A stretch of 64,000 bases of DNA, taken from NCBI GenBank assembly GCA_947561395.2, contig OX387184.1, positions 44,258,766 to 44,322,765 on the forward strand, read 5' to 3'. This DNA is from Buxus sempervirens. Lineage: Eukaryota; Streptophyta; Magnoliopsida; Buxales; Buxaceae. Shown here in pieces: positions 4,334-44,969 of the stretch. Position 1 is the stretch's first letter. The number at the start of each line of letters is the position of its first letter. A model generated the notes under the pieces. It made no database searches. It was not told where the DNA came from and worked only from the letters and a program-made list of their open reading frames with translations. The position numbers and the translations under genes are program-made.

Positions 4334-4977
4334 TGTTGCTCCAAAATTGGGCCGGTGTGGACACGTGTCGAAGGTGGTGATGTGTCTCTACGCGGGCGTG
4401 CCAGTATCGTTTGATACAAATGATTTCGGGTTGAACCCTGACCCCGGGCACCTGTTCCGAATCTGAACCGGGATCGGTCCAGTCGTACTGCAAGTCACCT
4501 GTAATAAAACGGGTCAGGCGATGATATGAAGACTAGGGGTCCGGTCTTCGTTTGGGTTCTTGTAAGTGTTTGAAAGCGAAAGCGACTAATGGCACACAAA
4601 TCCTTTTATTATAAAATCGGCCGACGAGCCGAAAGCGACAACAGATAATCCTCAAAAGGGAAACAAAAAGTACAAAAGAAAACCGACAGGGCTTGCAGGA
4701 CCGGCCTGTCCTGGTCTTATAGCCGTAATCAGGTATAAGCGCAGGAGGAAGGGGCGGCTGCTAGCAAAGTCAATTCGGGGGATTCACCTTGGATTGCTGC
4801 TTACTCGAAAATACACAAGTCACCTGGCGTGATCAGAGCGAGTCTCGGGACCGGCTGCTCGGGATTCTGTAAACACAGAACTGCGAGTCAGGGGCGGCCT
4901 CAACTTACTCTCCGGTGGCAGGATTCTGGTGTTAATCGGAGTAAAGAGGGGTCGAAGATGTCACTGCGACTGGAAGC
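4334..4977 (-). repeat. Outer element 3' LTR, first part
   Basis: This matches 47338-47981 and stops at GAAGC, the target duplication of the inner element. The LTR resumes at 26267. An ACACGTGTC G-box-like word lies near 4363-4371 and is shared with the other LTR. Confidence 0.92.
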
Positions 4978-6380
4978 TGTGAGACATGGGAAAAAATCAA
5001 TTTAATGATTTCCTCAATCATCACACGGGATCAAATAAAACAAAGAGTCGCCACCATTCAATTTAGGTGTGAATGGACACCAAAATATTAAATAAGCACA
5101 AAAGGCAAATTTTAGGGCAAAATATCCCTCCTAAAAAAAACAACCAGAGATGGATAAGGGGATTAGGTTATGAACAGGGGAAGGTGTTAGGCACCCCTAT
5201 TCATCCACACAAGGTGGTTGCCAGGTATTGTTCATGTTTTTACAAATAAAAAAGGCTTGCTATAAAAATCACAAAAATCACATAAAAAGGCAAAATTGTA
5301 TGGTTTTTTCATATGAATAGTCTGATTGATCCAGAACTTTCAAATATGATCATACCATTCCTAGGGTTTCATGATCAAAACAAAATTGAGATAAAATCAA
5401 ATAAAATCAATTTAAAGTGAAAAATCCAAAAATCTGGTTTCAAGTCAAAATTCTAGAAATCTGGAAAAATATGATTTTTATAAAATATTTCAAAATTGAA
5501 CTTGAATAATCCAGGTCATAGGTAAAACCCAAATTTCACATTAAATCCAGAAATAAAAACCAAAAATACTCACGTTGATGAAAAACACCAAAAGGGGAGA
5601 ATTTAGACCGTAGGGTCTTCTTTCAATAATGAAAAACGATTTAAAAACCACATCATGAAACCCTAGAATTTATTTTCAGGCTTCTGGATCCAGATCTACC
5701 ATATTGATCATGATAAATCTAAGATCCTAGCCTAAAACCACAAAACTCACGAAAACAGTGCTGTAGGTGCAAAAGTGGCAAAAATCCAAATTTTGTCAAA
5801 AAGTGGGGATCTCATGCTATAAACATCATAGATTCATGTAATTCATTCAGATATATCATAAAAAGCATTAAAACATGATCAGGATATTCAAAGCAATCAC
5901 ATCTCACAAATTAGAGCACATGGGGGTCTACCCTACGGATCCACCTGTTCCCCTTTCCCCTAGTTCTCTCTTCACGTTTTACGGTTAGAGAGACTCTTGA
6001 GGTACTTAGAGATAGGTTTGGGTACACAAACACAATCACAGGCCTTATTCTATGAAAAAAAGAAAAAAACAGATATGGGGTTCTATTCTAGGGATCCACT
6101 TGTTCCCCTTTCCCCTAGTTCTCTCTTCACGTTTTACGGCTAGAGAGACCCTTGAGGTACTTGGAGACAAGTTTAGGGATACAAAATAGATATGGCCTTA
6201 TTCTACAGCAATAGAGATGATCCTATTACTTCTAGAATTGAAGACAAAAAATAAAAAGGGATAGGGGACTTACCTGGATTGAGCAGGCAGAGCAGCAGGG
6301 ATTCCTTTCTCTTCTCTTGGAGCTTCTTAGAATTCCTTGGACTCAAAATTTCGTGGCCTTTAGCTAGAGGAAAGAGCCTC

Positions 6381-6388
6381 TATTTATA
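6381..6388 (-). promoter_or_regulatory. TATA box of inner-element LTR (3' copy)
   Basis: Minus strand TATAAATA followed by GAGGCTCTTTCC. The identical box in the 5' LTR is at 25856-25863. Transcription would run leftwards in the gag-pol sense. Confidence 0.7.
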
Positions 6389-6579
6389 GACACACCCAGG
6401 GGCATGGTTGGTCCAGAAGGATATATCCTGATTCTCAGGATAGAGTGAAATACAGAGATAATGCCCATCCATAGTGGCTTCAGCGAATAAAATACTTAAT
6501 TCGCTCGTTTAAAGATATATTGGACTTCAAATAAAGCTCGGAAATCGAGAGAAGGACCAAACTTGCACGTGTCTTTAAT

Positions 6580-6683
6580 GCCCGTAAATGATTTACGGTC
6601 CAATGGTGACCGTATTGGTATTACGGGCGCGCCTGCCCGTAGATATTTTGCGGGCGAGATAGGCCCGTGAAGCCAATACGGGC
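6580..6683. repeat. Palindrome array, four 21-bp units, 27-28 bp period
   Basis: Units start at 6580, 6608, 6635 and 6663. Each has an arm close to GCCCGT or GACCGT, a variable centre of about 9 nt, and a complementary arm close to ACGGGC. The array lies about 190 bp upstream of the LTR TATA box (minus orientation). Confidence 0.85.
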
Positions 6684-6786
6684 AAAGCCTGTTCATTCTA
6701 TTTTTAGGCCTTTTTGACCTGTTTTAAGCTCTAATTACATGTTTTTATTATTTTCTCATTTGGCAGTGCAATTTGGGGTGTCTACA

Positions 6787-7135: not shown

Positions 7136-7239
7136 GCCCGCATTGTGCTTACGGATAGAGCCTGCCCGTAGAGGATTCACGGGCGACTGGGACCGTAGTG
7201 TTTTCACGGGCGTCTGATGCCCGTACTGTTTTTACGTAT
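7136..7239. repeat. Palindrome array upstream of antisense gene 1
   Basis: Four 21-bp units start at 7136, 7164, 7191 and 7219 (spacing 28, 27, 28) with GCCCGT/ACGGGC-type arms and different centres. It lies 350 bp inside the 3' LTR, at the expected promoter of the plus-strand PMD gene. Confidence 0.85.
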
Positions 7240-8609: not shown

Positions 8610-11481
8610 ATGGCCCGCCTTAGATCAGCTTCCAGAGATCCAGCAGATGAGCCTTCCTCTTCTAGGGTTAGGCGAGATCCTGCTGATGTGGCTACTTCCT
8701 CGAGGGCCGAGAGGGATTCTGATTCTGATATCCCAGATTTCCCTTCTGGGGATTCGCGTGAGGCGACCCCAGAGGTATACTCTAACCTTTCTGCAATTTC
8801 CTATCCTTTCTCAAAATACATCTTCCTGATTCTTCAATTATTTTCTTTTAGCCGGCTGTTGAGGCTTCTGGCAGAGATAGGAGCCGTAGCAGACGCAGAG
8901 CTGGAGGCAGAGATGGAGGCCATGATGAGGGCCATAGAGGAGGCCGCAGAGGGGGCCGTGGCAGAGATGAGGCCAGGACCAGGGTTGAGATCCCTGAGGA
9001 GGTGGCTGCCCAGATTAGGGACACCGATCTTCTGCATGGTTTGAGGACTCATCCCTCAGCGTGCGTTAGGGCGGATATCCCTTTGGAGTATCCGATGTCC
9101 CATTATAGAGGGAGCTGGGCTAGCTTTACTAAATTTTTGAGAGCTTGCAGTTCAGCCTATCGTCGGGAGCTAGGATTGTATGGTTTCGGCATGTTTATCA
9201 CCATCCCGGACGTACGCTTGGATCGGGCCCTCATTGCCGCATTGCTGGAGAGGTTTTTCCCAGAGACACTGAGCTTCCACTTTCCAGATATTGAGATTGG
9301 GATCCGGCCTTCTGATTTCACACTCATCACCGGGATTAGGATGATCGGTGATACCATTACTGAGATGGTGATGCCAGAGGCCGATGAGATTGCTGGTTAT
9401 CTTGGATACATTGTGCTGCCTCCTGAGGCATGGGATCGGGGGAGAGCTAGATTGTCTCTGACATGGCTGAGAGAGACTTTTAGTAGGAGGCAGTTTGGCC
9501 AGCTTGCTGCCGGTGACCATGTTTTCCCATTCGCCTTCCGATTCCTCTTTCTGTATATGATGGGATCCTGCTTCTTCCCAGAGGACACGACTTCAGTTAG
9601 TCCTCACTTCTTGAGTCTTCTGGGAGATCTGCAGCGGGCGAGGAGGTATGCCTGGGGCCCGCTCATATTTGGTACTATTCTGGCTGGCCTGCGCCGATCA
9701 GTGAGTGGCCTCTCTACTTCCAGAGGGGCTGGAGTTGGGTGCAGGTTCTTCTGGCCCTTCTTGCAGGTGAACCTTTTTCTTTATCTCTTTCTTTTTATCT
9801 CTCCTTTTCTATTCTTCTGACTATTTTCTTCTTTCTTGCAGTTTTTTGCTAGGGTTTATATTCCCTATTTCCGCCCTACCTCTACGATGCCTGAGGAGAC
9901 GTATCCCATGGCACTTAGATGGTGTCATGTAGAGCACGACTCTGAAAAGAGTCGTCCCAGGTCCGCCCGGGCCCACTTAGACAGGTTATACCGGTCTGAG
10001 GTAATCTTCTTTTAATTCCTCTACTTCTTCTTTTCTTTTCTTCCTGGATCGCATATCTGATGTCTTGTTTTGTTTTTCAGCTATTTGTCCCCAGGATGGA
10101 GGACATTCATGAGGTGTTGGCCCTGCAGGCAGCCAGAGATGATGCATTTGTCCCTGACCAGAGACGACAGAGATACCAGTTCTTTATTGGTCAGCTGGGC
10201 AGCATCTGGTATTGTGGCGAGCGCTTCTTCTTTCAGCATGTGGGAGAGCCGCAGATTCCTGCCATCCCGCCAGACACTACTCCTTCTTATCCTCCTATGC
10301 CTATTGATCCTGCCCAGTTCTTAGATTGGACTGAGGCAGATACATTATTAGAGGAGGGTGACTATGATGCCTGGTTCTGGCGAGCTTCTGTTGGGTGCCT
10401 CATGTCACCCATGCCTGTCCGTGGCGGAGTCACGGAGATAGGAGGGGTCGTGATTAGGTCCTATGACACCACGGTATGCCTTCTTCCTTCTCTGATCTTC
10501 TACTTCCATTTAGCATTTTTTCCTGACTTCTTTCTTTGCTATTTCAGGAGGCTCAGTTGGCAGAGATCAGGTCTCGCTATGCTGATTTAGAGCGCCAGCG
10601 TGATGCAGCGATCGCTGAGCGGGATGCCCTCTATATTACCATCTCAGATCTCCGGGGGCAGCTAGCCAGAGCCCAGGGCCAGGAGGGTCCATCTGATGTA
10701 CATGATCAGGCGGGTCCATCTGATGCACAGGACCAGGCGGGTCCATCCAATACTCAGGTTAATTTCTTCTTTTATTTCCATTCCTGCTTTTGTATTTGTT
10801 TGTCTTGTTCTGACTGAATTTTTCTCTTAGTTTCAGGAGTACACAGCTGGCCCCTCTTCACCTGCTTCACCCGTGCCTATGCATTTCCGGGATGAGGTGT
10901 TTTCTGTGGCACGGATGGAGTTCGTGACATCTCCTAGTCCAGTAGAGGTTCCTGCAGCAGAGCCCGAGGTCGAGGCTGATATTGTACTTGCCGCTGAGGA
11001 CGTGCCAGAGTCTGCCCCAGTAGCTGAGACTGCTCCTGCTACATCTGCTGATGTTGATATGGATTCGGCTATGGACATCGCTATCGTAGAGCCTACCGTG
11101 GAGGCTGCGGTGATGGAGGAGGCTACAGCTGATCCTGTAGAGCCTGGGGTTGATGCTGATGCACCTGGGACCTCTGCTCCTGCTAGTCCTGATATGGAGG
11201 ATGCTGAGGTGACGCATGCTGCTGTGGATACGTCAGAGGAGTCTTCCCGTACTGATTCTGATGTAGATACTTCAGGGTATGTCCCTCCTGATCATCCCAC
11301 TGCTGGCCTTGTACCTTTATATATGTGGCATGATGTTCAATCTGTTTTGAGCAGGATGCCGCGTAGCACAGCCCGCAATGTGGTGCGGCATGTCTTTGAG
11401 CGCAGGCGATCTTCAGGCCGAGGACGAAGCAAAGGACGAGGCCGTGGCAGTAGGGTCGGACCTGCATGGTCATTAGATTAG
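8610..11481 (+). CDS. Antisense gene 1 of inner element: spliced PMD protein
   Basis: Six exons join in frame: 8610-8774, 8852-9766, 9842-10000, 10081-10473, 10548-10757 and 10837-11481, giving about 828 aa. All five introns are GT-AG, 74-80 bp long, and phase 0. Residues about 55-100 are an Arg/Gly/Asp-rich low-complexity stretch. Next comes a plant mobile domain (PMD, the MAIN/MAIL1-type fold): an FHFPDIEIGIRPSDFTLITG motif stands where the family has a Phe-Pro then Thr-Leu-x-Asp-Val pattern, and FFWPFLQ ends exon 2. Exon 5 holds a short coiled coil and GPSDxxDQA repeats. The C-terminus is acidic and then ends in a basic GRGRSKGRGRG tail, a possible nuclear signal or nucleic-acid-binding region. 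It opposes gag-pol. Its role in the element is unknown. Confidence 0.82.
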
Positions 11482-11682: not shown

Positions 11683-11814
11683 AACCGTATTTATACTACG
11701 AGCAAGCCGTGCCCGTAAAATTACTACGGGCGTACCTTGCCCGTGAAGTTTTCACGGTCAGGCGTGTCCGTAATGCCTATACGGGCACGCTTTGCCCGTA
11801 ATATAATTACGGAA
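11683..11814. repeat. Palindrome array upstream of antisense gene 2
   Basis: Five 21-bp units start at 11683, 11711, 11739, 11766 and 11794, a period of 27-28 bp. Arms are variants of GCCCGT and ACGGGC and centres are unrelated. The last unit ends 22 bp before a TATATAAA box, so the array occupies a core-promoter-proximal position. Confidence 0.9.
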
Positions 11815-11844: not shown

Positions 11845-11935
11845 CTCCTAGGGAACGTCACTGTGACACTTTTATTGGTTGGAAAACTCCCTGAGCACGT
11901 CTTTTCTTGCTTTCCTTGGCTTCTTTGGCGCTTCC

Positions 11936-13746
11936 ATGGCTTCCCCTACACCGCTTTCTCCTGCCGTTGAATCTCCTCCTGCAAGACAACTTGTTAGATC
12001 AAAACCTCCTAATCTTACCAGGTACAATATTGTGGATTCCTTTTATGATAGATGGGTCAACTCCATGACCCTTGATGAGGAGATTCGTTGGGATTCCATC
12101 CACTTAGGGCACATCCTACACCTCCCTAAAATTCCCTTTAAGTGGGAAATCATTGAAGCTTTGATAGGCCACTGGGTACCTGAGATGAATCTCTTCCGTT
12201 TTGATGACAAAGAGATGACCCCCACCATAGAAGAGATTGAAACCATCCTTGGCCTAAGATTTTCTGAAAAAGTTGTGAACCCACCCCTAAAGCTTAGTTA
12301 TAAAAAAGAGGCTTCCACTTTCTTGGGTATAGGGAAGAAGGACTTAGGAAATTCTGATGCACTATTGACCTTGTCCAAGACCTTTTTGACTGAAAAACTT
12401 CTGAGGAGTAATGACAAGGACTCTAGGTTTAATGCATTGACCCTGATAGTGGTCAATCAGCTGCTTTTTCCACGGGGTGATGACCAGGTTGACTTGGCTC
12501 TCATCTCAGTTATCTGTCAGGTTAGGGAACGCGAGAGGTTGGCCCCTATGATCCTAGCAGAGATATATCAGGCTCTTACTGATTGTTATTTCAGGAAGAA
12601 GAAACGCTTCCTTGCCTGCGCCCCTATCCTACAGGTAAAAAATATGCATATATTTTTTTTCTTCTATTATTTTTTTTTTATTCTTCCTTTCCTTCTTTTT
12701 TTTTTTTTTCTTCTTCTTTTTTTTTTCTTCTTCTTCTCTTTTTCTTTCTTCTCTTTTTTTCTTTTTCTCTCTCTTTTTCTTCTTTTTTTTTTCTTTTTCT
12801 TTTTTTTTTCTTTCTTTTTGGAAATAAATTGAAATACTCCCTTTTTCTGCAGCTTTGGTTGCTTGACCATCTTAGCCAGGTTGAAGAAATAACTCGCCGC
12901 TTCTTTCCAAGATTGAAAGTTCCTGTTTTGATGAGCAATAGGGGATGTCCTAACATCCAAGGTGGCAAGCAAGGCTGGTTCACTTTCTTGGGTACTCTCC
13001 AGGATGATCAAGTGAGATGGCCTGGCACTTATCAGCCCACTCCAGAGACAGTGATTAGCTTTAGGGATAAAAACTTTCTAGCCCTAGCAGGCTTGAAATC
13101 GGCTGTTCTCTATCTTCCTTTGAGGGTACTTCGGCAATTTGGAGTGACCCAGGGAATTATGATTCCCACAGGTTATGAGAGCTTTATAGGGCCATTTACA
13201 TCAGCCACCATGGGGCTAAATGCTCAATTAATGAAAGAGTGGTCCTATGTTTGTTTTCTGCGGGGTCCAGTCTTTTCTGAGTCCAATGTGAAGGACTATC
13301 ATTTCTGGATCAAAGAACAGGTGCAGAGTCATGCCCCAGTACCAGAGGATCCTCCTGCAGTTCTTCCTCCTACTTATGAGGACATTCTGGAGTTAGAAAG
13401 GGCAACCCATAAGCGGCTTCAACAAATATGGGTACGGGAGGCTCAAGAACTTAGGATAAAAGTCCTTGTTCTGGAGAGGAAGCTTGAAGAGCAGAAGTCT
13501 GGCCGCATTGCCATGGAGAAGAAACTTGAAGAACAAAGGCAGGCTCGTCGCTTTGAAGTCCGAGTGATGCGGAAGAAGTATCAGGATTCCTTGGCTGACC
13601 TTAGGGTGTTGAGGAGCAGGCTTTCTTTTTCTGATGAGGTCATCTCCTTTTTGAGTGATCCTGATGCAGAGAATGCTTCTGGAATCATTGCAACTCAGGC
13701 AGCTAGGATTAGGGAGCTTGAGGAGCAGTTAGGGAGTAGGGATTAG
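11936..13746 (+). CDS. Antisense gene 2 of inner element: PMD-like coiled-coil protein
   Basis: Two exons, 11936-12634 and 12853-13746, join in frame (phase 0, GT-AG, 218-bp intron) to about 530 aa. I chose the ATG at 11936 because it follows the TATA box; an upstream in-frame stretch has no ATG. Residues about 75-110 carry NLFRFDDKEMTPTIEEIETI, matching the PMD pattern of an aromatic patch followed by MTPTxxD and an LxGL turn. The C-terminal part resembles the plant DUF7745-type proteins (LRQFGV segment, then a Trp-rich stretch). The last 130 residues are a strongly charged coiled coil. The intron is almost pure T/C (12650-12825), and the Lys-rich minus-strand ORFs there are shadows. Function unknown. 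Confidence 0.78.
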
Positions 13747-14697: not shown

Positions 14698-15828
14698 TCA
14701 TGGAAAATATCTCTTTACTGTATCAGAGTTGATTGGCTCAGGAAAATCCTTCCCATCCATTTCTGTTAAGATGAGAGCACCCCCTGATAGGACTTTCTTG
14801 ACCACATAAGGTCCTTCCCAATTTGGTTTGAACTTTCCACGAGGATCCTCCAAAAAGGGTAAAATCTTCTTTAATACCAAATTTCCTTCTTGGAAAGTTC
14901 TGGGCTTCACCTTTTTATTGTAAGCCCTAGCCATCCTCTTCCGATATAATTGGCCATGACTAAGTGCCTTCAAACGCTTTTCTTCTATTAAATTGAGTTG
15001 ATCATGCCTAGACTGTATCCATTCAGCTTCTTCTAATTCAGCTTCCATTAGCACTCTTAATGAAGGTATTTCCACTTCCACTGGTAAAACTGCTTCCATT
15101 CCATAAACTAAGGAGTATGGGGTTGCCCCTGTAGAAGTCCGGATCGAGGTTCTGTAAGCATGTAGAGCAAGTGGCAGCATTTCATGCCAATCTTTAAAAC
15201 TCACTACCATTTTCTGAATAATCTTCTTTATATTCTTATTCGCTGCTTCCACTGCCCCATTCATCTTTGGTCTGTAAGGCGCTGACTTGTGGTGGGTAAT
15301 CTGAAATTGTTCACACATCTTCCTCATGTCTTTGTTCTTAAGGTTTGAAGCGTTGTCTGTTACTATGGCACTTGGCAAACCATAGCGGCAAATGATGTTG
15401 TGCTTCAAAAACTTAAGAACATGGTTACTCGTAATGTTTGCATATGAAGCTGCTTCTACCCACTTGGTGAAGTAATCAATTGCTACAAGTATAAACCTGT
15501 GTCCATTTGATGCCTTTGGAGAGATCATTCCAATGACATCTATACCCCACATAGAAAAAGGCCACGGAGATGTCATACTGTGTAATTCACTTGGGGGTAC
15601 ATTCTTGTTATCTGCGTACACTTGGCATAAATGACACCTTTTAACGTGCATATAGCAATCATGCTCCATAGTTGACCAGTAATATCCCAATCGCAGGATC
15701 TTCTTGGCAAGCATATGCCCATTCATATGGGGTCCACACACTCCTCCATGTACTGTTTCAACTATCCTTTCTGACTCAGTCTTTGCAACACATCTGAGTA
15801 GTATATCATTGTGTGATCTTTTGTACAA
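14698..15828 (-). CDS. Inner element integrase
   Basis: This inserts the element's cDNA into chromosomes. The 376 residues begin with a zinc-binding region (His-x3-His near residues 28-35 and CHLC near 65). The catalytic core follows, with WGID, then TDNAS, then the Glu of VEAANKNIKK, so the D, D and E residues are all present. The C-terminal part (LVLKKILPF, WEGPYVVKK) is the usual gypsy tail. It continues directly from the RT/RNase H frame but is separated from it by an in-frame TAG at 15829-15831. That is either a nonsense mutation or a readthrough stop. Confidence 0.92.
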   Translation of the reverse strand: MYKRSHNDILLRCVAKTESERIVETVHGGVCGPHMNGHMLAKKILRLGYYWSTMEHDCYMHVKRCHLCQVYADNKNVPPSELHSMTSPWPFSMWGIDVIGMISPKASNGHRFILVAIDYFTKWVEAASYANITSNHVLKFLKHNIICRYGLPSAIVTDNASNLKNKDMRKMCEQFQITHHKSAPYRPKMNGAVEAANKNIKKIIQKMVVSFKDWHEMLPLALHAYRTSIRTSTGATPYSLVYGMEAVLPVEVEIPSLRVLMEAELEEAEWIQSRHDQLNLIEEKRLKALSHGQLYRKRMARAYNKKVKPRTFQEGNLVLKKILPFLEDPRGKFKPNWEGPYVVKKVLSGGALILTEMDGKDFPEPINSDTVKRYFP

Positions 15829-17712
15829 CTAACCACCACTTAGTAAGAACTGTCCTGCCAGCCTCTGTATTGTTCTTTTCTCGGTAGAGGTGACATTTTC
15901 TGGCAGACTTCGATCATTTAGGAAATTCTTAATGTCTTGAAACCATGGTACATCTTCTTCTGGGGTTTCTTCTAGAACAAGGCAGTAAGCTGGTTCATCT
16001 CTGACTTCAATTTCCAATGGTCTAATATCAACCCCTTCTGGCATACTGACCATTGAAGCCAATGTTGCTAGAGCATCTGCAAACTGGTTTTTGGCTCTTG
16101 GCATATAATTGAAGGAAATTCGAGTAAATTTAGTGCTTATTTCTTCCAAATACTGGTGATAGGGGATCAATTTGTGATCCTTGGTCTTCCATTCACCAGT
16201 TGTTTGGAAGATGATAAGACTCGAATCCCCATATACGTCAAGTTCCTCTACTTCATGGTCTAAGGCTGCTTGTAACCCAATTATGCATGCTTCATACTCT
16301 GCTATATTGTTCGTGCATTGGAACCTTAACTTCACTGCAATCGGAATATGTGCCCCATCTAGCTTGATCAATACAGCCCCTATTCCTTTTTCATTCATAT
16401 TGGCGGCCCCATCAAAGAACATTTGCCATGAGCTTTCACCTTCTTCCTCTTCAGCAAACAGGATTGCCTCATCAGGGAAGTTGGTCTTTAAGGGTTGATA
16501 TTCTGGTAAAGGGTGTGCAGCTAAGTGATCTGCAATAGCTTGACCCTTAATGGCCTTCTGTGTGATATAGGTGAGGTCAAATTCAGAGAGTAACAACTGC
16601 CACTTTGCTGTTCTACCAGTTAAAGCCGGTTTCTCAAATAGATACTTCAAAGGGTCCATGCGGGATATCAATAATGTAGCGTGACTAAGGAAATAGTGCC
16701 TTAATCTCTGAGTTGCCCATACTAAAGCACAACAAGTCTTCTCTAAGGGGGAATACTTTGCTTCATATTCTGTAAACTTCTTGCTTAGGTAGTAAATCGC
16801 CCTCTCCTTTCTGCCTGTATCGTCATGCTGTCCTAAGACACACCCCATTGATGTCTCCAAAACTGACAAGTATAAAATCAGTGGCCTTCCTGGAGTTGGT
16901 GGTACTAGCACAGGTGGGTTTAATAAGTATTCCTTTATTGTGTCAAAGGCTTCTTGGCAATCATCATTCCAGACTGTCGGGTTATTCTTTCTTAGAAGTT
17001 TGAAAATTGGTTCACAGATAGCGGTGAGCTGTGCTATGAACCGGCTTATGTACTGAATCCTTCCAAGAAAACCCCGAACTTCCCTCTCGGTTCTAGGTGA
17101 TGGCATTTCAATGATGGCTTTAGCTTTAGCTGGGTCAATCTCAATTCCCCTTCTGCTTACTATAAAGCCCAACAATTTTCCTGATGTAGCCCCAAAGACA
17201 CATTTCGCAGGGTTAAGCCTTAGACTGTATTTCCTAAGCCGGTCAAATACCTTCTTCAAGTTGATCAAGTGGTCTTCTTCCTCACATGATTTGGCTATCA
17301 TATCATCCACATAAACCTCCATCTCCTTATGGATCATATCATGGAATAAGGCTGTCATGGCCCTCTGGTAGGTTGCCCCAGCGTTCTTAAGTCCAAATGG
17401 CATGACAGTGTAGTGGAAGGTACCCCAAGGGGTGATAAAGGCTGTCTTCTCTTGGTCTTCCTTAGCCATCTTAATCTGATTGTACCCAGAAAACCCATCC
17501 ATGAATGAGAACAGGCTATGTACAGCGGTGTTATCCACCAAGATGTCTATGTGTGGAAGTGGAAAACCATCCTTTGGACTTGCCTTATTCAAATCTCTAT
17601 AATCTACGCACATTCTGACCTTTCCATCCTTCTTTGGCACTGGCACTATATTTGCAAGCCATTCGGGGTATGTGGAAACTGCTAAGAATCCGGCTTGGAA
17701 TTGTTTAACCAC
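15829..17712 (-). CDS. Inner element reverse transcriptase with two RNase H domains
   Basis: Reverse transcriptase occupies about residues 1-230: PVPKKDGKVRMCVDYRDLN, FMDGFSGYNQI, MPFGLKNAGATYQRAM and the catalytic YVDD near 135. Then comes the RT-linked RNase H (residues about 285-400, IYYLSKKFTEYEAKYSPLEK). A second, archaeal-type RNase H begins at WQMFFDGAANMNEKGIGAV, with EYEAC and YGDSSL giving the acidic residues. This extra domain is the hallmark of the Tat lineage. The frame is open upstream back to an in-frame TAG (17761-17763) that separates it from the preceding pol segment. Confidence 0.95.
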   Translation of the reverse strand: MVKQFQAGFLAVSTYPEWLANIVPVPKKDGKVRMCVDYRDLNKASPKDGFPLPHIDILVDNTAVHSLFSFMDGFSGYNQIKMAKEDQEKTAFITPWGTFHYTVMPFGLKNAGATYQRAMTALFHDMIHKEMEVYVDDMIAKSCEEEDHLINLKKVFDRLRKYSLRLNPAKCVFGATSGKLLGFIVSRRGIEIDPAKAKAIIEMPSPRTEREVRGFLGRIQYISRFIAQLTAICEPIFKLLRKNNPTVWNDDCQEAFDTIKEYLLNPPVLVPPTPGRPLILYLSVLETSMGCVLGQHDDTGRKERAIYYLSKKFTEYEAKYSPLEKTCCALVWATQRLRHYFLSHATLLISRMDPLKYLFEKPALTGRTAKWQLLLSEFDLTYITQKAIKGQAIADHLAAHPLPEYQPLKTNFPDEAILFAEEEEGESSWQMFFDGAANMNEKGIGAVLIKLDGAHIPIAVKLRFQCTNNIAEYEACIIGLQAALDHEVEELDVYGDSSLIIFQTTGEWKTKDHKLIPYHQYLEEISTKFTRISFNYMPRAKNQFADALATLASMVSMPEGVDIRPLEIEVRDEPAYCLVLEETPEEDVPWFQDIKNFLNDRSLPENVTSTEKRTIQRLAGQFLLSGG

Positions 17713-17760
17713 TTCATCTTTGACCTTTAGCGTCCATTCAGGTTTTAACCTTCTCAGTTT

Positions 17761-18324: not shown

Positions 18325-18980
18325 ACAAACGTGGCTTCAAAAGTAAGGGGAGTTTCCTCCCAATTATTTAGAATGAAAGAATCTGGGGCAGGGATACAAG
18401 CCTGCTCCTCAAGCTCAGGGTCTGCATCTGAGATCACCAGTACTGGGTGAGTTGCATCGCCTGCTTCTTCGGTAGGGCCAGTTTCAGATGGAACTTCTAC
18501 TGCAGCCCAATCAATAAAAGGTAGCTCCTCTGCTACTTTTTCTTGCTTGTCTTCTGTCATGGCAAAGAATGCCCCTACGTCCTCTGAAAAATCCTGTCTC
18601 TGTTCTGTCTGTGGCCCAGGCCCACCAGATGCTTTTGGAGGTGGAGGTGGAGGTGGAACATATGGTTGTATTGTGGAGGGTTTGGGTTTCTGGAATGGGT
18701 TGATATTGTGGTATGGAGGTTTGGACTGATCCTCAGGAGGAGACAGCTGAATCATGTGAGACAGCTTAGGAAAAGTTTCCCTGATGTGCGGAAATTTCAT
18801 AGCTTCTATCGGCCCCTGACTTTTCCATTTCCTTGGCTTGGACCCCAATCCTGCTCTGTGAACCATCTTCTTAACATGTACTGGTTCTATCCTTCCTTGT
18901 AGGTTAACCCCCAGACCTTTTCCAGGGTGAAAGTTGTACTTTTCTAGCACATTTTTGACCATTCTCTCAGCACAGGTCAA
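18285..18980 (-). CDS. Inner element G-patch and linker segment
   Basis: Near its start lies a G-patch-like motif (NVLEKYNFHPGKGLGVNLQG), known between protease and RT in many plant Tat elements and thought to bind nucleic acid. A Pro-rich low-complexity stretch (eight consecutive prolines) and an acidic linker follow. The ORF overlaps gag-protease by 14 bp in another frame, because of a G7 run (C7 at 19002-19008 on the plus strand) near the end of that ORF. Confidence 0.8.
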   Translation of the reverse strand: MTCAERMVKNVLEKYNFHPGKGLGVNLQGRIEPVHVKKMVHRAGLGSKPRKWKSQGPIEAMKFPHIRETFPKLSHMIQLSPPEDQSKPPYHNINPFQKPKPSTIQPYVPPPPPPPKASGGPGPQTEQRQDFSEDVGAFFAMTEDKQEKVAEELPFIDWAAVEVPSETGPTEEAGDATHPVLVISDADPELEEQACIPAPDSFILNNWEETPLTFEATFVWQTDMASKKKLH

Positions 18981-21900
18981 CTTTCCTTCTTTTTCCTGAT
19001 ACCCCCCCAGGTATATAATTCACAGCTTCAAATTGAAAAGAGTGAAACGCCATTTTATCTGCTGTCATTTCCGTGTTAATACAGGGTACATCAGGGGACC
19101 ACATGGGGGGAACCAAGTTTTCGGCCAGGACGGTAATCAGCTTTTCCCCTCTAATGTACTTGACTCTTTGGTGGAGAGTAGATGGTATAGCCCTAGCTGT
19201 ATGAATCCACGGCCTTCCTAGGAGTAGGTTGAAAGCCGCAGGTATATCCATCACTTCAAATGTGATGTTGAAAATATACGGTCCAATTGTGACCGGCAGT
19301 TCAACCTCCCCTAGGGAGTGCGTTTTAGAGCTGTCAAATGCTCTTATGATTCTTCCATTTTGCTTTATTTTGTTTCGCTCCAGATTGAGCTTAACAAAGG
19401 TTATCAATGGGCAGACATTGAGAGCCGACCCATTATCAATCAGAACCCGGGCTATCATGCAACCCTTACTGAGTACAGCTATGTGCAATGGGTCTACATG
19501 ATGGTATCCTACTGGACTGATTTCAGTTTCAGAAAAGGTTATGACATTATGGGATAAAATTTGACCAACCATCCGGCCTAGTTGGTCTGGTTCAATACTT
19601 TTAGGCACATGGGCCCCCTGGAGTATCCTTAACAAGGAGTCCCTATGTTTTTCAGAATTTAACAATAGTCCCAGAATTGAGATCTGGGCAGGGACTTTAT
19701 TCAATTGCTCAACAACATTGAATTCACTCTTTTTTATGACCTTAATGAGGTCAGCAGCCTCACTGTCAACTACCTGAGGGGTATCTTCCCCTACCTTGGC
19801 CTTTCCTTTATTTTTTTCTTCTTCTTTCTCCTTCTTTGTTTCTTTTTGTTTTTCTTCCACCCCTACACATTTTCCTGACCTCATCATGAGGTTTACTTCT
19901 TCCTTGCTTTCAACTGCAGGGCATGTAGTGGTAAATGCTTCACTGTAGTTCCATGGTACAGCCGATTCAGAGTAGGAAGGCTTGGGGACATTTACCACCA
20001 ATGGGGGAAGTTTGGACTTGGCAATGGAAGTCTGATTAATAGGAACATTAACAACCAATGGAGGAAGTTGTTTTGATTGGGGGTTTGCAGAAGTGACTGA
20101 TGCACTAAGGGGGTCACAATTTATGACCAATGGTGGCTTAGACTGAATGGGCGGAATAAAAGTGGATGGATTATAATTAATGACCAAAGGTGGGTTGGCA
20201 ATGTTCATCTGGGCCATGAGGGATGAGACCCGGTCCAAAGATGAGCTGATGTTCTTTGCAGCACTATCATTCCCCTTTGAAATCATATTTATTTCTTTGC
20301 CTTCACTTCTCCTGTCAAAATATACTTTGACCGTTGTCCCTATGGGAGCAATTAATTGAAATGGGTCAAAGGTTATTTTGTCAGAAGAGATGACTCCTAT
20401 GACATTAGATGGGCCTGCCCCGTGATGCTGGGGCAGTGGGTTTTGTCCAATATCTGTTCTTGGAGGATTGGAAGCCCCTGTATTGAAAGACAGGGTATTC
20501 TGGTCTAGTAAGTCCTGAATAGCATGTTTTAAAGGCCAGCACTTGTCTGTAGGGTGCCCAGGTGCACCCATATGGTAATCACAAGTGGTGGAGGGGTCAA
20601 AATTTCTCCCCTTAGATGCATTCGGATTAGGTTCTCTTAAGGTGATATACCCTCCTTGCAATAAAGTGGGCAGCAATTGAGAGGGAGTCATTGGAATAGG
20701 GGTGAAAACCCTATTTCTCCTTGCTGCAAAATAGGCGTCCTTTTCCTCTTTGGTAAAAACCCTTTTTTGGTCTGAAGGTGCTGCTGGAACATTGACCCTC
20801 ATAGGGGCCTGGGTGGATGGAGATGGAGTAGGAAAATGAGCAGGTACGTTGATTTGTATGGGCTTGTTAGGGCCAGATGGTGGCTGTACCATGTTTACCT
20901 CACCCTCCTTCTTGTTCCCATTCTTTTTTATCCCGCTTCCTTTCTTTAGGTTGGGGTCCTGCTGGCTAACCATGGCAGAGTGGTCAATTATCTTACCTGA
21001 TCTTATTCCGTCCTCAATTCGGTCGGCCACTTGAACCAGAGCTGCAAAATTAGTGGTGGTCTGACCCACCAAGTGGCTGTAGAATGGTTGACCCAAAGTG
21101 CTTATGAAGGTAGAAATCATTTCCTGTTCTAGCATGGGTGGCCTGACCTGGGAGGCCGTCTCCCTCCATCTCTTGGCATATTGCCTTACAGTCTCATCCC
21201 TTCCTTTGCTCATTCTCATGATGTCATACCTGTCTGGCATGATCTCTGAATTGAACCGGTATTGAGCCAGGAAGGCATCGGCTAGGTCCTTCCATCTTTT
21301 GATCTTCCCATGGTCCAGAGTGGCGAACCATCTTAATGCGGTTCCAGTCAGGCTCCTTTGGAAAAGTTGGATCAAAATACCCTCATCCTGCCCGAACTGG
21401 CATAGGGCACCGCAATACAACTTTAAGTGGCTCATGGGGCAACCAGTGCCATCATACTTGTCCAAGTCTGGGCATTTAAACTTAGCCGGCAGGTTAACAT
21501 TGGGGTATAGGCACAGGTCTTCAAAATTGGTGCCTCCAAAGTTGTTTACCCCTTTGACTTCCCTAAGTTCATCTTGGATCATTTCTAGCTTATGCATGAA
21601 CTTTCTTTCAACCTCTTCCCTTATCCTTTCCTTTTCCTTAGCCCTGTTTGATTCAGCTGTCTCATCCCTGGTCAGTATAGGTTCAGGGGTGGGTTCATAT
21701 ACGGGTTCAGGAGTTGGTTGCACTGGAGGTGGAACATTGACTTGGGGTGGAGGTGCAGGGTTGGATGTGGATGCCTGGTTCTGGGCCTGCATTTGTTGGG
21801 CCTGCACTTGTTGGGCCTGTACTGACAGTATGTTCTCTAGCATTCGGGCTAGTCCTGCCACTTGTTCTTGGAGTAGAACAACATCTGGATGAGGAGCATC

Positions 21901-22014
21901 AACTTCATCTTCAATGGGATTCATGGCTCGAGCTCTTGATCTGGTTACAGGAGCTATGATTGCGAGTGTATTAGTACCTGGATTTAAGATAAAGGAAAAG
22001 ATATCAATGCTCAA
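18967..22014 (-). CDS. Inner element gag-protease polyprotein
   Basis: The 1015 residues hold the capsid-type gag domain at about 150-350 (PDLDKYDGTGCPMSHLKLYC, LTGTALRWF, WKDLADAFLAQYRFN). A CxxH...H...C zinc-knuckle-like motif (CDYHMGAPGHPTDKC) follows near residue 470. Next come low-complexity Pro/Asn repeats with PPLVIN/PPLVVN words and a Lys/Glu-rich linker. An aspartic protease closes it, with ARVLIDNGSALNVCP and LLGRPWIH; its active site is Asp-Asn-Gly-Ser rather than Asp-Thr/Ser-Gly, as in other Tat elements. The start used is the first ATG; a later Met at residue 31 is also possible. Confidence 0.93.
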   Translation of the reverse strand: MSIDIFSFILNPGTNTLAIIAPVTRSRARAMNPIEDEVDAPHPDVVLLQEQVAGLARMLENILSVQAQQVQAQQMQAQNQASTSNPAPPPQVNVPPPVQPTPEPVYEPTPEPILTRDETAESNRAKEKERIREEVERKFMHKLEMIQDELREVKGVNNFGGTNFEDLCLYPNVNLPAKFKCPDLDKYDGTGCPMSHLKLYCGALCQFGQDEGILIQLFQRSLTGTALRWFATLDHGKIKRWKDLADAFLAQYRFNSEIMPDRYDIMRMSKGRDETVRQYAKRWRETASQVRPPMLEQEMISTFISTLGQPFYSHLVGQTTTNFAALVQVADRIEDGIRSGKIIDHSAMVSQQDPNLKKGSGIKKNGNKKEGEVNMVQPPSGPNKPIQINVPAHFPTPSPSTQAPMRVNVPAAPSDQKRVFTKEEKDAYFAARRNRVFTPIPMTPSQLLPTLLQGGYITLREPNPNASKGRNFDPSTTCDYHMGAPGHPTDKCWPLKHAIQDLLDQNTLSFNTGASNPPRTDIGQNPLPQHHGAGPSNVIGVISSDKITFDPFQLIAPIGTTVKVYFDRRSEGKEINMISKGNDSAAKNISSSLDRVSSLMAQMNIANPPLVINYNPSTFIPPIQSKPPLVINCDPLSASVTSANPQSKQLPPLVVNVPINQTSIAKSKLPPLVVNVPKPSYSESAVPWNYSEAFTTTCPAVESKEEVNLMMRSGKCVGVEEKQKETKKEKEEEKNKGKAKVGEDTPQVVDSEAADLIKVIKKSEFNVVEQLNKVPAQISILGLLLNSEKHRDSLLRILQGAHVPKSIEPDQLGRMVGQILSHNVITFSETEISPVGYHHVDPLHIAVLSKGCMIARVLIDNGSALNVCPLITFVKLNLERNKIKQNGRIIRAFDSSKTHSLGEVELPVTIGPYIFNITFEVMDIPAAFNLLLGRPWIHTARAIPSTLHQRVKYIRGEKLITVLAENLVPPMWSPDVPCINTEMTADKMAFHSFQFEAVNYIPGGVSGKRRKVDLC

Positions 22015-22190: not shown

Positions 22191-22945
22191 AAAGATCTGA
22201 AATTCAAAGGCTTTCAGAGGCCCGGGGGGTTTTTGAAAAAAGGTCTGAAATTCAAAGGGTTTCAGAAGCCCAGGGATATTTTTGGAAAAGGTCTGAAATT
22301 CAGAGGCTTTCAGAGGCCCAAGGATTTTTGATAAAAGTCTGAAATTCAAAGGCTTTCAGAGGCCCAGGGTTTTTTTTGATAAAAGTCTAAAATTCAAAGG
22401 CTTTCAGAGGCCCAAAAGTTCTAAAATTCAAAGGCTTTCAGAGGCCCAAAAGTTCTGAAATTCAAAGGCTTTCAGAGGCCCAAAAGAAATAGGTCTGAAA
22501 TTCAAAGGCTTTCAGAGGCCCAAAAGTTCTGAAATTCAAAGGCTTTCAGAGGCCCAAAAGAAAAAGGTCTGAAATTCAAAGGCTTTCAGAGGCCCAAAAG
22601 TTCTGAAATTCAAAGGCTTTCAGAGGCCCAAAAGATCTGAAATTCAAAGGCTTTCAGAAGCCCGGAGTTTTTTGAGAAAAAGTCTGAAATTCAAAGGCTT
22701 TCAGAGGCCCAGAGTTTTTTGAGAAAAAGTCTGAAATTCAAAGGCTTTCAGAGGCCCGGGGTTTTTTGAGAAAAAGTCTGAAATTCAAAGGCTTTCAGAG
22801 GCCCAGGATTTTTTTGAGAAAAAGTCTGAAATTCAAAGGCTTTCAGAGGCCCAGGATTTTTTTGAAAAATCTGAAATTCAAAGGCTTTCAGAGGCCCAAG
22901 AGTTTTGAAAAAGTCTGAAATTCAAAGGCTTTCAGAAGCCCAAGG
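22191..22945. repeat. Tandem repeat, about 18 copies, in the leader
   Basis: A core of about 29 bp recurs 18 times by eye, separated by spacers of variable length, giving periods of about 31-52 bp. The core reads TCTGAAATTCAAAGG then CTTTCAGAGGCCC. It contains CTGAAA and its complement TTTCAG 9 nt apart, again a 6-9-6 layout of 21 bp, but here the centre is conserved as well. Confidence 0.92.
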
Positions 22946-23096: not shown

Positions 23097-23229
23097 AACC
23101 GTATACACAGTACGGTCCAGCCCTGCCCGTATTCAAATTACGAGCCAGCTGTGACCGTATGCAATCCACGGGCGCGCCTAGCCCGTATAACTAATACGGG
23201 CAAGCCCAGCCCGTGTACTAAATGCGGTT
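23097..23229. repeat. Palindrome array in the leader, five units, exact 28-bp period
   Basis: Units start at 23097, 23125, 23153, 23181 and 23209. Each is 21 bp with arms like GCCCGT and ACGGGC around unrelated centres. It lies about 1.2 kb downstream of the primer-binding site in the sense direction. Confidence 0.9.
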
Positions 23230-24450: not shown

Positions 24451-25855
24451 GTTGTGAGACATGGGAAAAAATCAATTTAATGATTTCCTCAATCATCACA
24501 CGGGATCAAATAAAACAAAGAGTCGCCACCATTCAATTTAGGTGTGAATGGACACCAAAATATTAAATAAGCACAAAAGGCAAATTTTAGGGCAAAATAT
24601 CCCTCCTAAAAAAAACAACCAGAGATGGATAAGGGGATTAGGTTATGAACAGGGGAAGGTGTTAGGCACCCCTATTCATCCACACAAGGTGGTTGCCAGG
24701 TATTGTTCATGTTTTTACAAATAAAAAAGGCTTGCTATAAAAATCACAAAAATCACATAAAAAGGCAAAATTGTATGGTTTTTTCATATGAATAGTCTGA
24801 TTGATCCAGAACTTTCAAATATGATCATACCATTCCTAGGGTTTCATGATCAAAACAAAATTGAGATAAAATCAAATAAAATCAATTTAAAGTGAAAAAT
24901 CCAAAAATCTGGTTTCAAGTCAAAATTCTAGAAATCTGGAAAAATATGATTTTTATAAAATATTTCAAAATTGAACTTGAATAATCCAGGTCATAGGTAA
25001 AGCCCAAATTTCACATTAAATCCAGAAATAAAAACCAAAAATACTCACGTTGATGAAAAACACCAAAAGGGGAGAATTTAGACCGTAGGGTCTTCTTTCA
25101 ATAATGAAAAACGATTTAAAAACCACATCATGAAACCCTAGAATTTATTTTCAGGCTTCTGGATCCAGATCTACCATATTGATCATGATAAATCTAAGAT
25201 CCTAGCCTAAAACCACAAAACTCACGAAAACAGTGCTGTAGGTGCAAAAGTGGCAAAAATCCAAATTTTGTCAAAAAGTGGGGATCTCATGCTATAAACA
25301 TCATAGATTCATGTAATTCATTCAGATATATCATAAAAAGCATTAAAACATGATCAGGATATTTAAAGCAATCACATCTAACAAATTAGAGCACATGGGG
25401 GTCTACCCTACGGATCCACCTGTTCCCCTTTCCCCTAGTTCTCTCTTCACGTTTTACGGTTAGAGAGACTCTTGAGGTACTTAGAGATAGGTTTGGGTAC
25501 ACAAACACAATCACAGGCCTTATTCTATGAAAAAAAGAAAAAAACAGATATGGGGTTCTATTCTAGGGATCCACTTGTTCCCCTTTCCCCTAGTTCTCTC
25601 TTCACGTTTTACGGCTAGAGAGACCCTTGAGGTACTTGGAGACAAGTTTAGGGATACAAAATAGATATGGCCTTATTCTACAGCAATAGAGATGATCCTA
25701 TTACTTCTAGAATTGAAGACAAAAAATAAAAAGGGATAGGGGACTTACCTGGATTGAGCAGGCAGAGCAGCAGGGATTCCTTTCTCTTCTCTTGGAGCTT
25801 CTTAGAATTCCTTGGACTCAAAATTTCGTGGCCTTTAGCTAGAGGAAAGAGCCTC

Positions 25856-25863
25856 TATTTATA
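25856..25863 (-). promoter_or_regulatory. TATA box of inner-element 5' LTR
   Basis: Minus strand TATAAATA. This is the expected core promoter of the genomic RNA, about 190 bp downstream of the palindrome array in the sense direction. Confidence 0.72.
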
Positions 25864-26054
25864 GACACACCCAGGGGCATGGTTGGTCCAGAAGGATATA
25901 TCCTGATTCTCAGGATAGAGTGAAATACAGAGATAATGCCCATCCATAGTGGCTTCAGCGAATAAAATACTTAATTCGCTCGTTTAAAGATATATTGGAC
26001 TTCAAATAAAGCTCGGAAATCGAGAGAAGGACCAAACTTGCACGTGTCTTTAAT

Positions 26055-26158
26055 GCCCGTAAATGATTTACGGTCCAATGGTGACCGTATTGGTATTACG
26101 GGCGCGCCTGCCCGTAGATATTTTGCGGGCGAGATAGGCCCGTGAAGCCAATACGGGC
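26055..26158. repeat. Palindrome array in inner-element 5' LTR
   Basis: The same four units as at 6580-6683, carried by the 5' LTR (offset 19,475). 21-bp units with GCCCGT/ACGGGC-type arms. Confidence 0.85.
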
Positions 26159-26266
26159 AAAGCCTGTTCATTCTATTTTTAGGCCTTTTTGACCTGTTTT
26201 AAGCTCTAATTACATGTTTTTATTATTTTCTCATTTGGCAGTGCAATTTGGGGTGTCTACAGAAGC

Positions 26267-26712
26267 AGTGAGAGAGGTCCTAATTTATCCTTTTGTATTA
26301 GAGGGGATAAAGGATCCCGGATGATCAAAATAATATAATAATCGGTTGCGGTTGGGTGGATTGTGTCCCTGAGTTCTTCGAAGTTATGCCTTTTATAGCC
26401 GATCCTTGACGGTTGCTCAACGTCCTACTCTTGCACGATCTCCAGGGTGGTTGGTCGTCTTCAGTCTTCCGTTCAGAATGATAACCGCTCGGCCACGATC
26501 TTAAAACTAATTTATTCTTGAATGGCCGATGACACGGTCTTTTGTAGTTTTGTCGTATTGGCGTGACTCGAACTGTATTCTTGGTTCTGTGTTCATGCTG
26601 ACGTGACCTAACCAACTGTACAAGGCCTACGTGCTTTGATGCCATGGCCTAAATAAGCCACGTAGGCACCACGTGTCCTTTTCTCATTCGTTGGTCATAT
26701 AGGGTGTAAACA
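26267..26712 (-). repeat. Outer element 3' LTR, second part
   Basis: This continues the LTR cut at 4977 and matches 47982-48435 with many substitutions and a 7-bp difference near 26460. It holds the inverted repeat GCCTACGTG (26625-26633) / CACGTAGGC (26659-26667), then an ACCACGTGTCC word (26668-26678). Confidence 0.9.
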
Positions 26713-26726
26713 TTGCCCCCCTACTT
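26713..26726 (-). other. Polypurine tract of outer element
   Basis: The minus strand reads AAGTAGGGGGGCAA directly before the LTR terminus TGTTTACACCC, which confirms that the outer element also points leftwards. Confidence 0.75.
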
Positions 26727-26938
26727 ACTTATTACGCCGTCATCGGCCGGTGTGATGAGTAAGTACTTTGGGTTTTTCAAAAATTGTTCGTTGCTTGATG
26801 TGAACAGATCACGCCACTTTCCCACGATCGCAATGATGAGACTTTTCGGGCTTCATCTCGCTTATAACATACTGCAGCCGAGATTTTACTTTACTTTTCT
26901 CTTTTGGCTACTTTGTCTTTTCTTCTTCTTTGTCTTCA

Positions 26939-29900: not shown

Positions 29901-30088
29901 ATAAAGCTGTTGATGATATTCTGAAGGAAAAGACCCGTCAGTGCGTCGAAATCTCCCATGAGCTGAAATCGGAGATAGAGTTGGCTCGAGGTTCCTTTCT
30001 GCTTTGGTCCACTTTGGTTGAAGAAAAACGATCTGCTCAAGAGTCTTTTGACCGTATTCATTCTGCAATTTTAAACACTTCTTTGTAA
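26939..30088 (+). CDS. Antisense gene A of outer element: spliced PMD protein
   Basis: Four exons, 26939-28514, 28577-28642, 28705-28862 and 28925-30088, join in frame through GT-AG introns of 62 bp each to about 987 aa. A TTATAAC box at 26862 lies 77 bp upstream of the chosen ATG. The plant mobile domain covers roughly residues 50-500: NTFNFPCGPMTPTVMDVCFI near residue 120 is the family signature, and GGPLWFLQFW lies further on. A Lys-rich insert (KKRKQPPTKKKKASKK) is a likely nuclear signal. The C-terminal 370 residues are Ser/Pro-rich and then coiled coil. Exon 2 and the start of exon 3 are a tandem duplication. It opposes gag-pol and sits next to the 3' LTR. No enzymatic role is known. 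Confidence 0.82.
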
Positions 30089-30431
30089 AGCATTTAATGA
30101 ATTCAAATCCTTTTTTGAAATCCATTTGCCAACTGTCCTAGCCGTCAGAATCGGCCCCCTTTTTGACAAAGTTTATCTTTTCAAATTGATTCACCCGTAT
30201 GATCTTTACTTTCAAAACGCTTTATTCGAGAATATCTCCAACCGCCGTTTCGATTTCTTTGGGAAGGCAATCGTACCATCAACACCTTTTTCGGGAAGAC
30301 CGCGGTCTTATCAAAAGTTCTTCCACGATAGTTTAATCATTACGAATCTTTTCCTATCGGCAGACGTTTTCTGTAGTGCTTCGTCTTCCTTCTTTCTACA
30401 AGTTTTCTTTGTCTGGTTCTTGTCATCGATC

Positions 30432-39610: not shown

Positions 39611-39676
39611 TGTATCCGGTCTTAGTGGCCGGATACACATGGGCCCTAGGTGATCCGGCCTGAGTTGCCGGATCAC
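39611..39676. repeat. Palindrome pair, 27-bp units 39 bp apart
   Basis: Unit 39611-39637 has TGTATCCGG-type arms and unit 39650-39676 has GTGATCCGGC/GCCGGATCAC arms. The second unit differs in sequence but keeps the 10-7-10 format and the 39-bp step. Confidence 0.8.
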
Positions 39677-41033: not shown

Positions 41034-41281
41034 TGTATCCGGACTTGGAGTCCGGATACACTATACATCATGTGTATCCGGACTCCAAGTCCGGATACAT
41101 TAAGCTTCCTTTGTATCCGGACTTGGAGTCCGGATACAAAACATAATAATTGGCAAAATTGAATTCCGCCACGAATTTGTCGGAGAATCGACGCGAATCT
41201 CGCCGAGCAAATCTTCGTATCCGGCCTTGGAGTCCGGATATACATACAGGTATGTGTATCCGGTATATTTGACCGGATACA
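41034..41281. repeat. Palindrome array, five 27-bp units, directly upstream of a TATA box
   Basis: Units start at 41034, 41073, 41112, 41216 and 41255. Steps are exactly 39 bp within the first three and within the last two. Arms are TGTATCCGGA-like and complementary. The TATA box at 41015-41022 (minus) lies 12 bp downstream in the sense direction. Confidence 0.87.
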
Positions 41282-44825: not shown

Positions 44826-44969
44826 TGTATCCGGCATATCAGGCCGGATACAAAAGGGTCTTAATGTATCCGGCATATAATGCCGGATATACTAAGGATT
44901 GCTTGTATCCGGTATGTTCCACCGGATACAATGGAAAATACTTGTATCCGGCCTAAGTTACCGGATACA
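44826..44969. repeat. Palindrome array, four 27-bp units, exact 39-bp period
   Basis: Units start at 44826, 44865, 44904 and 44943. Arms are TGTATCCGG(C/T) and the matching complement, and centres are unrelated. The array lies about 170 bp upstream (sense) of the LTR TATA box. Confidence 0.92.

Follow-up and report, generated by a model that had tools for sequence, protein, structure and literature searches.

Palindromic arrays of one geometry and several dialects at the LTRs and antisense promoters of an Ogre-like retrotransposon and its relatives in Buxus sempervirens

The nearest known system to the one described here is, by analogy, that of the VANDAL transposons and their VANC proteins, in which a transposon carries a short motif in tandem noncoding arrays and the motif differs between related families (PMC5735166; PMC10398659). 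We have analyzed a stretch of 64,000 nucleotides from Buxus sempervirens (assembly GCA_947561395.2, contig OX387184.1, positions 44,258,766 to 44,322,765 of the forward strand; the window in what follows), in which a long terminal repeat (LTR) retrotransposon, element A, carries tandem arrays of a palindromic unit in both LTRs, in its leader, and upstream of two antisense genes. The VANC-type trait is present here: a short motif stands in tandem noncoding arrays and differs between related families. As described, VANDAL arrays gain and lose units and the factor reading them is encoded by the element, whereas here the reader is putative; VANDALs are DNA transposons whose VANC proteins have DUF1985/DUF287 and whose motifs are of the YAGTATTAY type, whereas the present element is an LTR retrotransposon with antisense PMD/DUF7745 genes and inverted-repeat units of fixed N11 spacing; and it is for VANC that binding and demethylation have been demonstrated (PMC5735166).

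Element A, on the minus strand from 4978 to 26261, is Ogre-like. Ogre elements (Tat lineage, Ty3/gypsy) are described as carrying, after RNase H and before integrase, a second RNase H, a placement that holds for Ogre and Retand, and 57% of Ogre elements are credited with an extra PMD open reading frame (ORF); the available part of that account makes no mention of palindromic arrays or dialects (PMC6317226). Both traits are found in element A: RT_RNaseH (290-394) and RVT_3 (449-567) lie in 15829-17760 (minus strand) with rve in the next ORF, 14698-15828 (minus strand), and PF10536 is matched in the extra ORFs 8852-9820 and 11867-12832 (both plus strand). Family-specific tandem repeats recall Retand, to which the antisense TRP28 ORFs belong and for whose antisense proteins a regulatory role has been suggested, their function being left open by the author (PMC11963269). 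Among the Pfam matches (E<=0.01) obtained for 20 scanned ORFs of the window there was neither the TRP28 (PF04195) of Retand nor DUF1985/DUF287. The Arabidopsis PMD proteins MAIN and MAIL1 have been linked both to the silencing of transposons and to "DOWN", a motif in the promoters of downregulated genes; that motif comes from enrichment, its binding was suggested as possible, and the genes are the host's, not an element's (PMC7156037). One account draws a parallel between VANC and LTR elements and poses the question of whether the extra ORFs of other lineages act in this way, in its available part without mention of Ogre or PMD (PMC12844716). We found no description of arrays such as these in the literature searched, subscription papers being mostly outside the reach of that search. 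The Tax-responsive 21-bp U3 repeats of human T-cell leukemia virus type 1 (HTLV-1) and bovine leukemia virus (BLV) bind host CREB with a viral cofactor, and HTLV-1 has an antisense gene. To our knowledge, neither HTLV-1/BLV nor Tnt1 repeats its LTR array at the promoter of an antisense gene. Tnt1 resembles element A in having U3 boxes that serve LTR control and differs in that its BII boxes bind host factors (PMC3316501). A palindromic code of fixed geometry common to LTR and antisense promoter, and the switching of its dialect, seem to be new. The features of element A are as follows.

4978-6786, minus strand: 3' LTR, 99.8% identical to the 5' LTR; its minus-strand start, the terminus, is TGTAGACACCCCAAATTGCAC
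6381-6388, minus strand: LTR TATA box TATAAATA, 191 bp downstream of the U3 array
6580-6683, unstranded: A-dialect array of 4 units in U3 of the 3' LTR
7136-7239, unstranded: A-dialect array of 4 units upstream of antisense PMD gene 1; equivalent place in locus L051 at 4992-5092
8852-9820, plus strand: PMD-coding ORF of antisense gene 1 (PMD1), stop to stop; PF10536, E=1.5e-18
10000-10590 and 10831-11481, plus strand: further ORFs of antisense gene 1
11683-11814, unstranded: A-dialect array of 5 units upstream of antisense PMD gene 2; equivalent place in loci L051 and L052
11837-11844, plus strand: TATA box TATATAAA of antisense gene 2
11867-13746, plus strand: antisense gene 2 (PMD2), DUF7745/PMD; overlapping ORFs 11867-12832 and 12583-13746
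14698-15828, minus strand: integrase (rve, Integrase_H2C2)
15829-17760, minus strand: reverse transcriptase (RT), RNase H and second RNase H-like domain (RVT_1, RT_RNaseH, RVT_3)
18967-22014, minus strand: gag ORF (PF03732, E=7e-12)
23097-23229, unstranded: leader array of 5 A-dialect units, lying between gag and the 5' LTR; aligned in 7 further loci
24453-26261, minus strand: 5' LTR, 99.8% identical to the 3' LTR; start TGTAGACACCCCAAATTGCAC
26055-26158, unstranded: A-dialect array of 4 units in U3 of the 5' LTR

The five arrays together hold 22 units of the form GCCCGT-N9-ACGGGC. Start-to-start steps between units are 28, 27 and 28 bp in the LTR and at gene 1, 28, 28, 27 and 28 bp at gene 2, and 28 bp four times over in the leader; a spacer of 22 bp separates the gene-2 array from the TATA box TATATAAA at 11837. 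The original prediction had given the arrays these same coordinates, this spacer, and a period of 27-28 bp that becomes exactly 28 in the leader, and our measurements agree with it on each point. With two or fewer mismatches allowed, the window has 17 matches to the unit, every one within the arrays, where 0.54 would be expected and where 100 dinucleotide shuffles of the window gave 2 at most. Both arms are perfect in 4 of 18 distinct units, and the half-site is more accurately written G-[C/A]-C-C-G-T-[A/G], with degeneracy tending to be highest in the outermost half-sites of an array; CCG and CGG are both exact in 19 of the 22 units. When all spacers from 0 to 20 are compared, CCG-N11-CGG occurs 41 times in the window and each other spacing 1-10 times, and 36 of the 41 sites are array units of two codes, 19 of them A and 17 belonging to a set of 39-bp palindromes that we call B. 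Here the original prediction, which had treated the A arrays as a separate, second palindrome code, needs correction, since the 39-bp palindromes have the identical CCG-N11-CGG geometry; having that geometry in common, A and B look like dialects of one grammar.

The strictness of this geometry extends across the 676.5-Mb assembly, which our genome-wide pattern counts cover together with control patterns. The exact A unit occurs 14,261 times (reversed control, 8), and a three-arm A pattern with a linker of 4-9 bp has 5,399 and 5,302 sites on the two strands (control, 0), the linker being 7 bp at every three-arm place among the matches listed. Moving the A arms to spacers N10-14 yields 454 sites in all (control, 73), against 14,261 at N9, and of the 13 such off-spacing places for which letters were shown, 11 have the same N10 sequence, exactly or with a single base changed. 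For B, the exact unit GTATCCG-N11-CGGATAC is found 30,553 times (control, 0), as compared with 56 for spacers N12-16 combined (control, 3). A third form, AACCG-N11-CGGTT, gives 19,195 sites against 1,691 in the control, a weaker excess for a shorter pattern. The promoter of gene 2 is itself present in at least 40 copies of 96-100% identity, with 40 scored of 1198 first-look candidates. We also noted an unrelated recurrent palindrome, GCCCGTTTTCAATAAAACGGGC, of which several pairs lie about 16.0-16.4 kb apart, perhaps within the LTR of another element.

The dialects replace one another at equivalent positions. The B units of the window lie in the following places.

2635-2700, unstranded: B-dialect (39-bp) units in a B-type LTR copy
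38594-41864 (putative boundaries), minus strand: D-type LTR-like segment, B dialect, both ends homologous to the A-dialect segment L043:4263-6653
39611-39676, unstranded: second array of the D-type segment, with 2 B-dialect units
41034-41281, unstranded: 5 B-dialect units, next to which stands the D-type TATA box CTATAAAAGG (minus strand)
44826-44969, unstranded: B-dialect array of 4 units in a B-type LTR copy
57701-60169, minus strand: solo B-type LTR; target-site duplication GAAAC, terminus as in the A LTR
59923-60066, unstranded: B-dialect array of 4 units in this solo LTR

Although their dialects differ, the A LTR and the solo B LTR have their first 22 bp in common and blocks that are 72-79% identical, with the first core at LTR position 107 in the one and 110 in the other and the TATA box at 400 and 412, respectively. 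The D-type segments repeat this pattern: the A-dialect copy (L043:4263-6653) and the B-dialect copy of the window show 70% identity at each end, for about 370-400 bp, and in both a TATA box follows 11-14 bp after the array end. A third dialect, with AACCG...CGGTT units at irregular steps (23, 117, 68), occupies U3 of an LTR whose terminus is that of A (L047:1217-1445). Two side observations may be recorded here. An RT fragment lies at 56306-56971, near the solo LTR, and short palindromic repeats of other kinds occur at 51919-51998 and 51058-51110, of the types GGAAAATATTTTCC and AACTTCCGC-N7-GCGGAAGTT, the second of which also fits CCG-N11-CGG.

Homologous copies were compared in 20 stretches of 10 kb taken around listed places of one contig (C1). 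Arrays stand at the LTR, PMD1 and PMD2 in L051, at the leader, LTR and PMD2 in L052, and at LTR and leader in L045, L049, L050, L055 and L056. In the U3 set (10 homologous regions) the pairwise difference is 0.044 for the CCG/CGG core and 0.067 for bases adjoining the arms, against 0.219 for other arm bases, 0.42 for the center, 0.457 for the linker and 0.267 for the flank. Corresponding values for core, center and flank are 0.033, 0.148 and 0.109 in the leader (8 loci; linker, 0.102); 0.089, 0.314 and 0.174 at the PMD2 promoter (3 loci; other arm bases, 0.044); 0.083, 0.286 and 0.115 at the PMD1 promoter (2 loci; linker, 0.05); and 0.055, 0.27 and 0.371 in the D-type set (8 loci; linker, 0.342). 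The core thus differs less than center and flank in all five sets, and variable columns number 24 of 156 for cores, 149 of 312 for centers and linkers, and 1233 of 2312 for flanks (Fisher p=2e-12 and 2e-21). The loci were chosen for an intact unit pair; the LTR set is the cleanest in this respect, 7 of its 9 nonreference rows having been chosen via another array. With reference rows removed, cores remain below centers, linkers and flanks in all four sets so treated (LTR, leader, PMD2 and D-type), the LTR values becoming 0.049 for core, 0.413 for center, 0.463 for linker and 0.279 for flank. In methylated DNA no pair mutates more readily than CG. Even so, CpGs of the reference are retained in the other rows of these four sets at 252 of 268 core positions, as compared with 38 of 69 elsewhere in the arrays and 203 of 357 in the flanks.

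A change of dialect at the LTR appears to be accompanied by the same change at the antisense promoter. Among the matches listed for contig C1, four stretches have identical B centers at both ends, with array starts 20.1-20.7 kb apart, and inside each stands a further B unit or array, 4.7-5.7 kb short of the right-hand one; in element A, for comparison, 5.0 kb separate the array at gene 2 from that of the 3' LTR. In one such element a 5' LTR with a B array and TATA box (L057) and a plus-strand gag of 63% identity to that of A (L058) fixed the orientation, from which it follows that the internal array should precede an antisense PMD2. A place picked from the array coordinates on this expectation (L059) holds four B units, followed by TATAAAT, by a start codon and by a protein whose identity to gene 2 of the window is 74% over 46 residues. 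In the single B-dialect element whose PMD2 promoter has been read, then, LTR and PMD2 promoter are both in the B dialect.

With moderate confidence, we favor the view that each array forms a lattice of sites bound by a regulator, dimeric and sequence-specific, most likely made by the element and with an antisense PMD protein as the leading candidate, that controls the LTR and its own antisense promoter. Four points in this are inferred: the binding of a protein, its encoding by the element, its membership among the PMD proteins, and the direction in which it acts. Fixed spacing, independent variation of the A arms, conservation of the cores, and the dialect common to LTR and accessory promoter together fit a dimeric DNA-binding regulator acting on both. 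Positions 2 and 20 of the A arms vary independently (63 of 114 distinct units are paired, where 57.7 would be expected), which fits DNA half-sites rather than RNA stems. Because several dialects coexist in one nucleus, an element-encoded factor is the simplest account, and the PMD proteins are the obvious candidates, by association, since their promoters carry the arrays. The regulator would read two facing CCG-type half-sites exactly 11 bp apart (CCG-N11-CGG), its dialect being set by the bases just outside and inside CCG. On the U3 array it would set the activity of the LTR, and on the antisense-promoter arrays it would set its own supply, and sense and antisense transcription would thereby come under one private control. 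Activation or anti-silencing, in which CG-containing control regions would be kept open, seems likelier than repression. The original prediction had suggested common control of the LTR and antisense promoters, and this is supported by the recurrence of the arrays, by the conservation of their cores, and by the matched B dialect at LTR and PMD2; the PMD protein that it named as a possible controller is kept here as a candidate. It had also proposed that related copies be aligned, and would have counted missing arrays, or arms drifting as fast as centers, against itself; arrays are present at the matching control regions, and the CCG/CGG cores stay while the centers drift.

The strongest competing account, which we consider possible but rather unlikely, is that the arrays bind host transcription factors, one for each dialect or a set of paralogues with the CCG-N11-CGG geometry in common, and that the elements have in this way taken over a control of the host. 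Among LTRs that respond to heat, the binding of heat-shock factors provides a parallel. The D-type segments, in which no coding region was found, carry arrays of both dialects, and element C (below) has PMD genes without arrays; both observations favor a host factor. The BII boxes of Tnt1 are described as bound by defense-induced factors (PMC3316501). However, the presence of several dialects at one LTR position, with LTR and antisense promoter matched, would require several such factors and a coordinated switch among them. We think it improbable that the arrays instead serve host silencing or chromatin organization, as targets of a methyl-CpG reader, small RNA or insulator protein. The arrays are CG-containing, repeated, and placed in noncoding control regions, and RNA-directed DNA methylation is described as targeting the noncoding regions of VANDALs (PMC10398659), but a sequence that purely aids silencing should decay, and the core CpGs are kept (252 of 268, against 203 of 357 in the flanks). 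Still less probable is that the units act as RNA hairpins in the packaging, stability or splicing of genomic RNA. They are inverted repeats, every array but the 5' U3 copy should, judging from its place, be part of the genomic transcript, and in B the arm pairs 1/27, 2/26, 3/25, 9/19 and 10/18 covary; this covariation is also explained by sub-dialects, however, the independence of positions 2 and 20 disfavors hairpins for A, and the gene-2 array lies upstream of the gene-2 TATA box and so outside the expected transcript of that gene. Tandem repeats arise easily in such elements, but a neutral duplication persisting in many copies is scarcely credible and was rejected, given conserved cores with drifting centers, strict spacing, and equal places in different families.

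A number of observations weigh against regulation by an element-encoded protein, or against the evidence we have brought for it. Cores are not the least variable class in the leader, PMD2 and PMD1 sets, another class being lower there; at PMD2, once the reference row is removed and two rows remain, the core (0.133) exceeds other arm bases (0.067), with the flank at 0.188; and in the D-type set the centers (0.27) vary less than the flanks (0.371). Since loci were chosen via intact units, the leader, D-type and PMD1 rows and one PMD2 row make conservation look stronger than it is. The other dialect has been read at the PMD2 promoter of one element, with three others placed by coordinates only. 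Of the four B-element spans, three contain AACCG-N11-CGGTT sites, 3.5-3.7 kb beyond the left array, so that B elements are not pure in every region; in the element that was read, this site sits between the end of the LTR and gag. Among 219 array units, a local count drawn from loci L037-L059 and the window, 23 combine A and AACCG half-sites in one unit, and A/B hybrids number 1, with 3 near cases; the separation of the dialects is incomplete. The window copy of the D-type segment has no ORF of 150 aa lying wholly inside it, and the use of both dialects by D-type segments fits a supply in trans but equally a host factor. Element C, on the minus strand of the window at 26262-48435, encodes gag, pol and two antisense PMD genes, yet no CCG-N11-CGG array is found in 47338-48435, the stretch taken as its LTR, or in 26262-31737, the region that precedes and separates its PMD genes; C may depend on a different code or have none at all. 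Finally, an AlphaFold model of the 629-aa second PMD ORF of element C, built with 4 sequences, had a mean predicted local distance difference test score of 32 and was not used.

Searches with the sequences themselves gave little. The second PMD ORF of element C had no match at E<=1 in a PDB sequence search, and the first ORF of antisense gene 2 (PF24924, E=3.3e-21; PF10536, E=5.3e-12) had none at E<=0.001 among 7993 candidates scored in a protein search of public collections. A search of viral_contigs with the reverse transcriptase returned no relative; the array pattern was present in 6 contigs of that collection, and the stretch examined in one of them is an unrelated repeat. The LTR terminus had no match in viral_contigs or genome_contigs, and a text search for it returned no paper.

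As to the remaining structure of element A, its target duplication is GAAGC (4973-4977 and 26262-26266), it also encodes a G-patch ORF, and it sits inside a second copy of 47338-48435; a paralogous empty site lies near 47977-47988. A 27-bp tandem repeat at 10674-10747, between the gene 1 ORFs 10000-10590 and 10831-11481, would, if translated, recall the variable repeats described for VANC proteins. The leader has a further tandem repeat at 22191-22942, with 16 exact TCTGAAA-N9-TTTCAGA inverted units at steps of mostly 34-48 bp; its copies are far more alike than those of the promoter arrays, and it matches a region in L054 at 82%.

More broadly, we advance the tentative proposal, to which we lean somewhat less than to its contrary, that the antisense PMD proteins of Ogre elements are dimeric, sequence-specific DNA-binding regulators of evolvable specificity, with one geometry and several dialects. 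Each lineage would run a private network whose LTR and PMD promoters change dialect together, and other LTRs, perhaps lacking proteins of their own, would switch between such networks. If this is true, plant LTR retrotransposons have an analogue of VANC anti-silencing, MAIN and MAIL1, as PMD proteins, descend from DNA-reading ancestors, and sequence-specific control by a self-made factor would apply to LTR retrotransposons as well as to DNA transposons. Arrays at both LTR and accessory promoter, with a spelling that is lineage-specific at both, suggest a concrete role for these proteins, that of a switch acting in trans on sites of its own. Exact sites number in the tens of thousands in this one genome; such a code could shape regulation and chromatin widely, and the question of what PMD proteins read is brought within reach of a binding assay.
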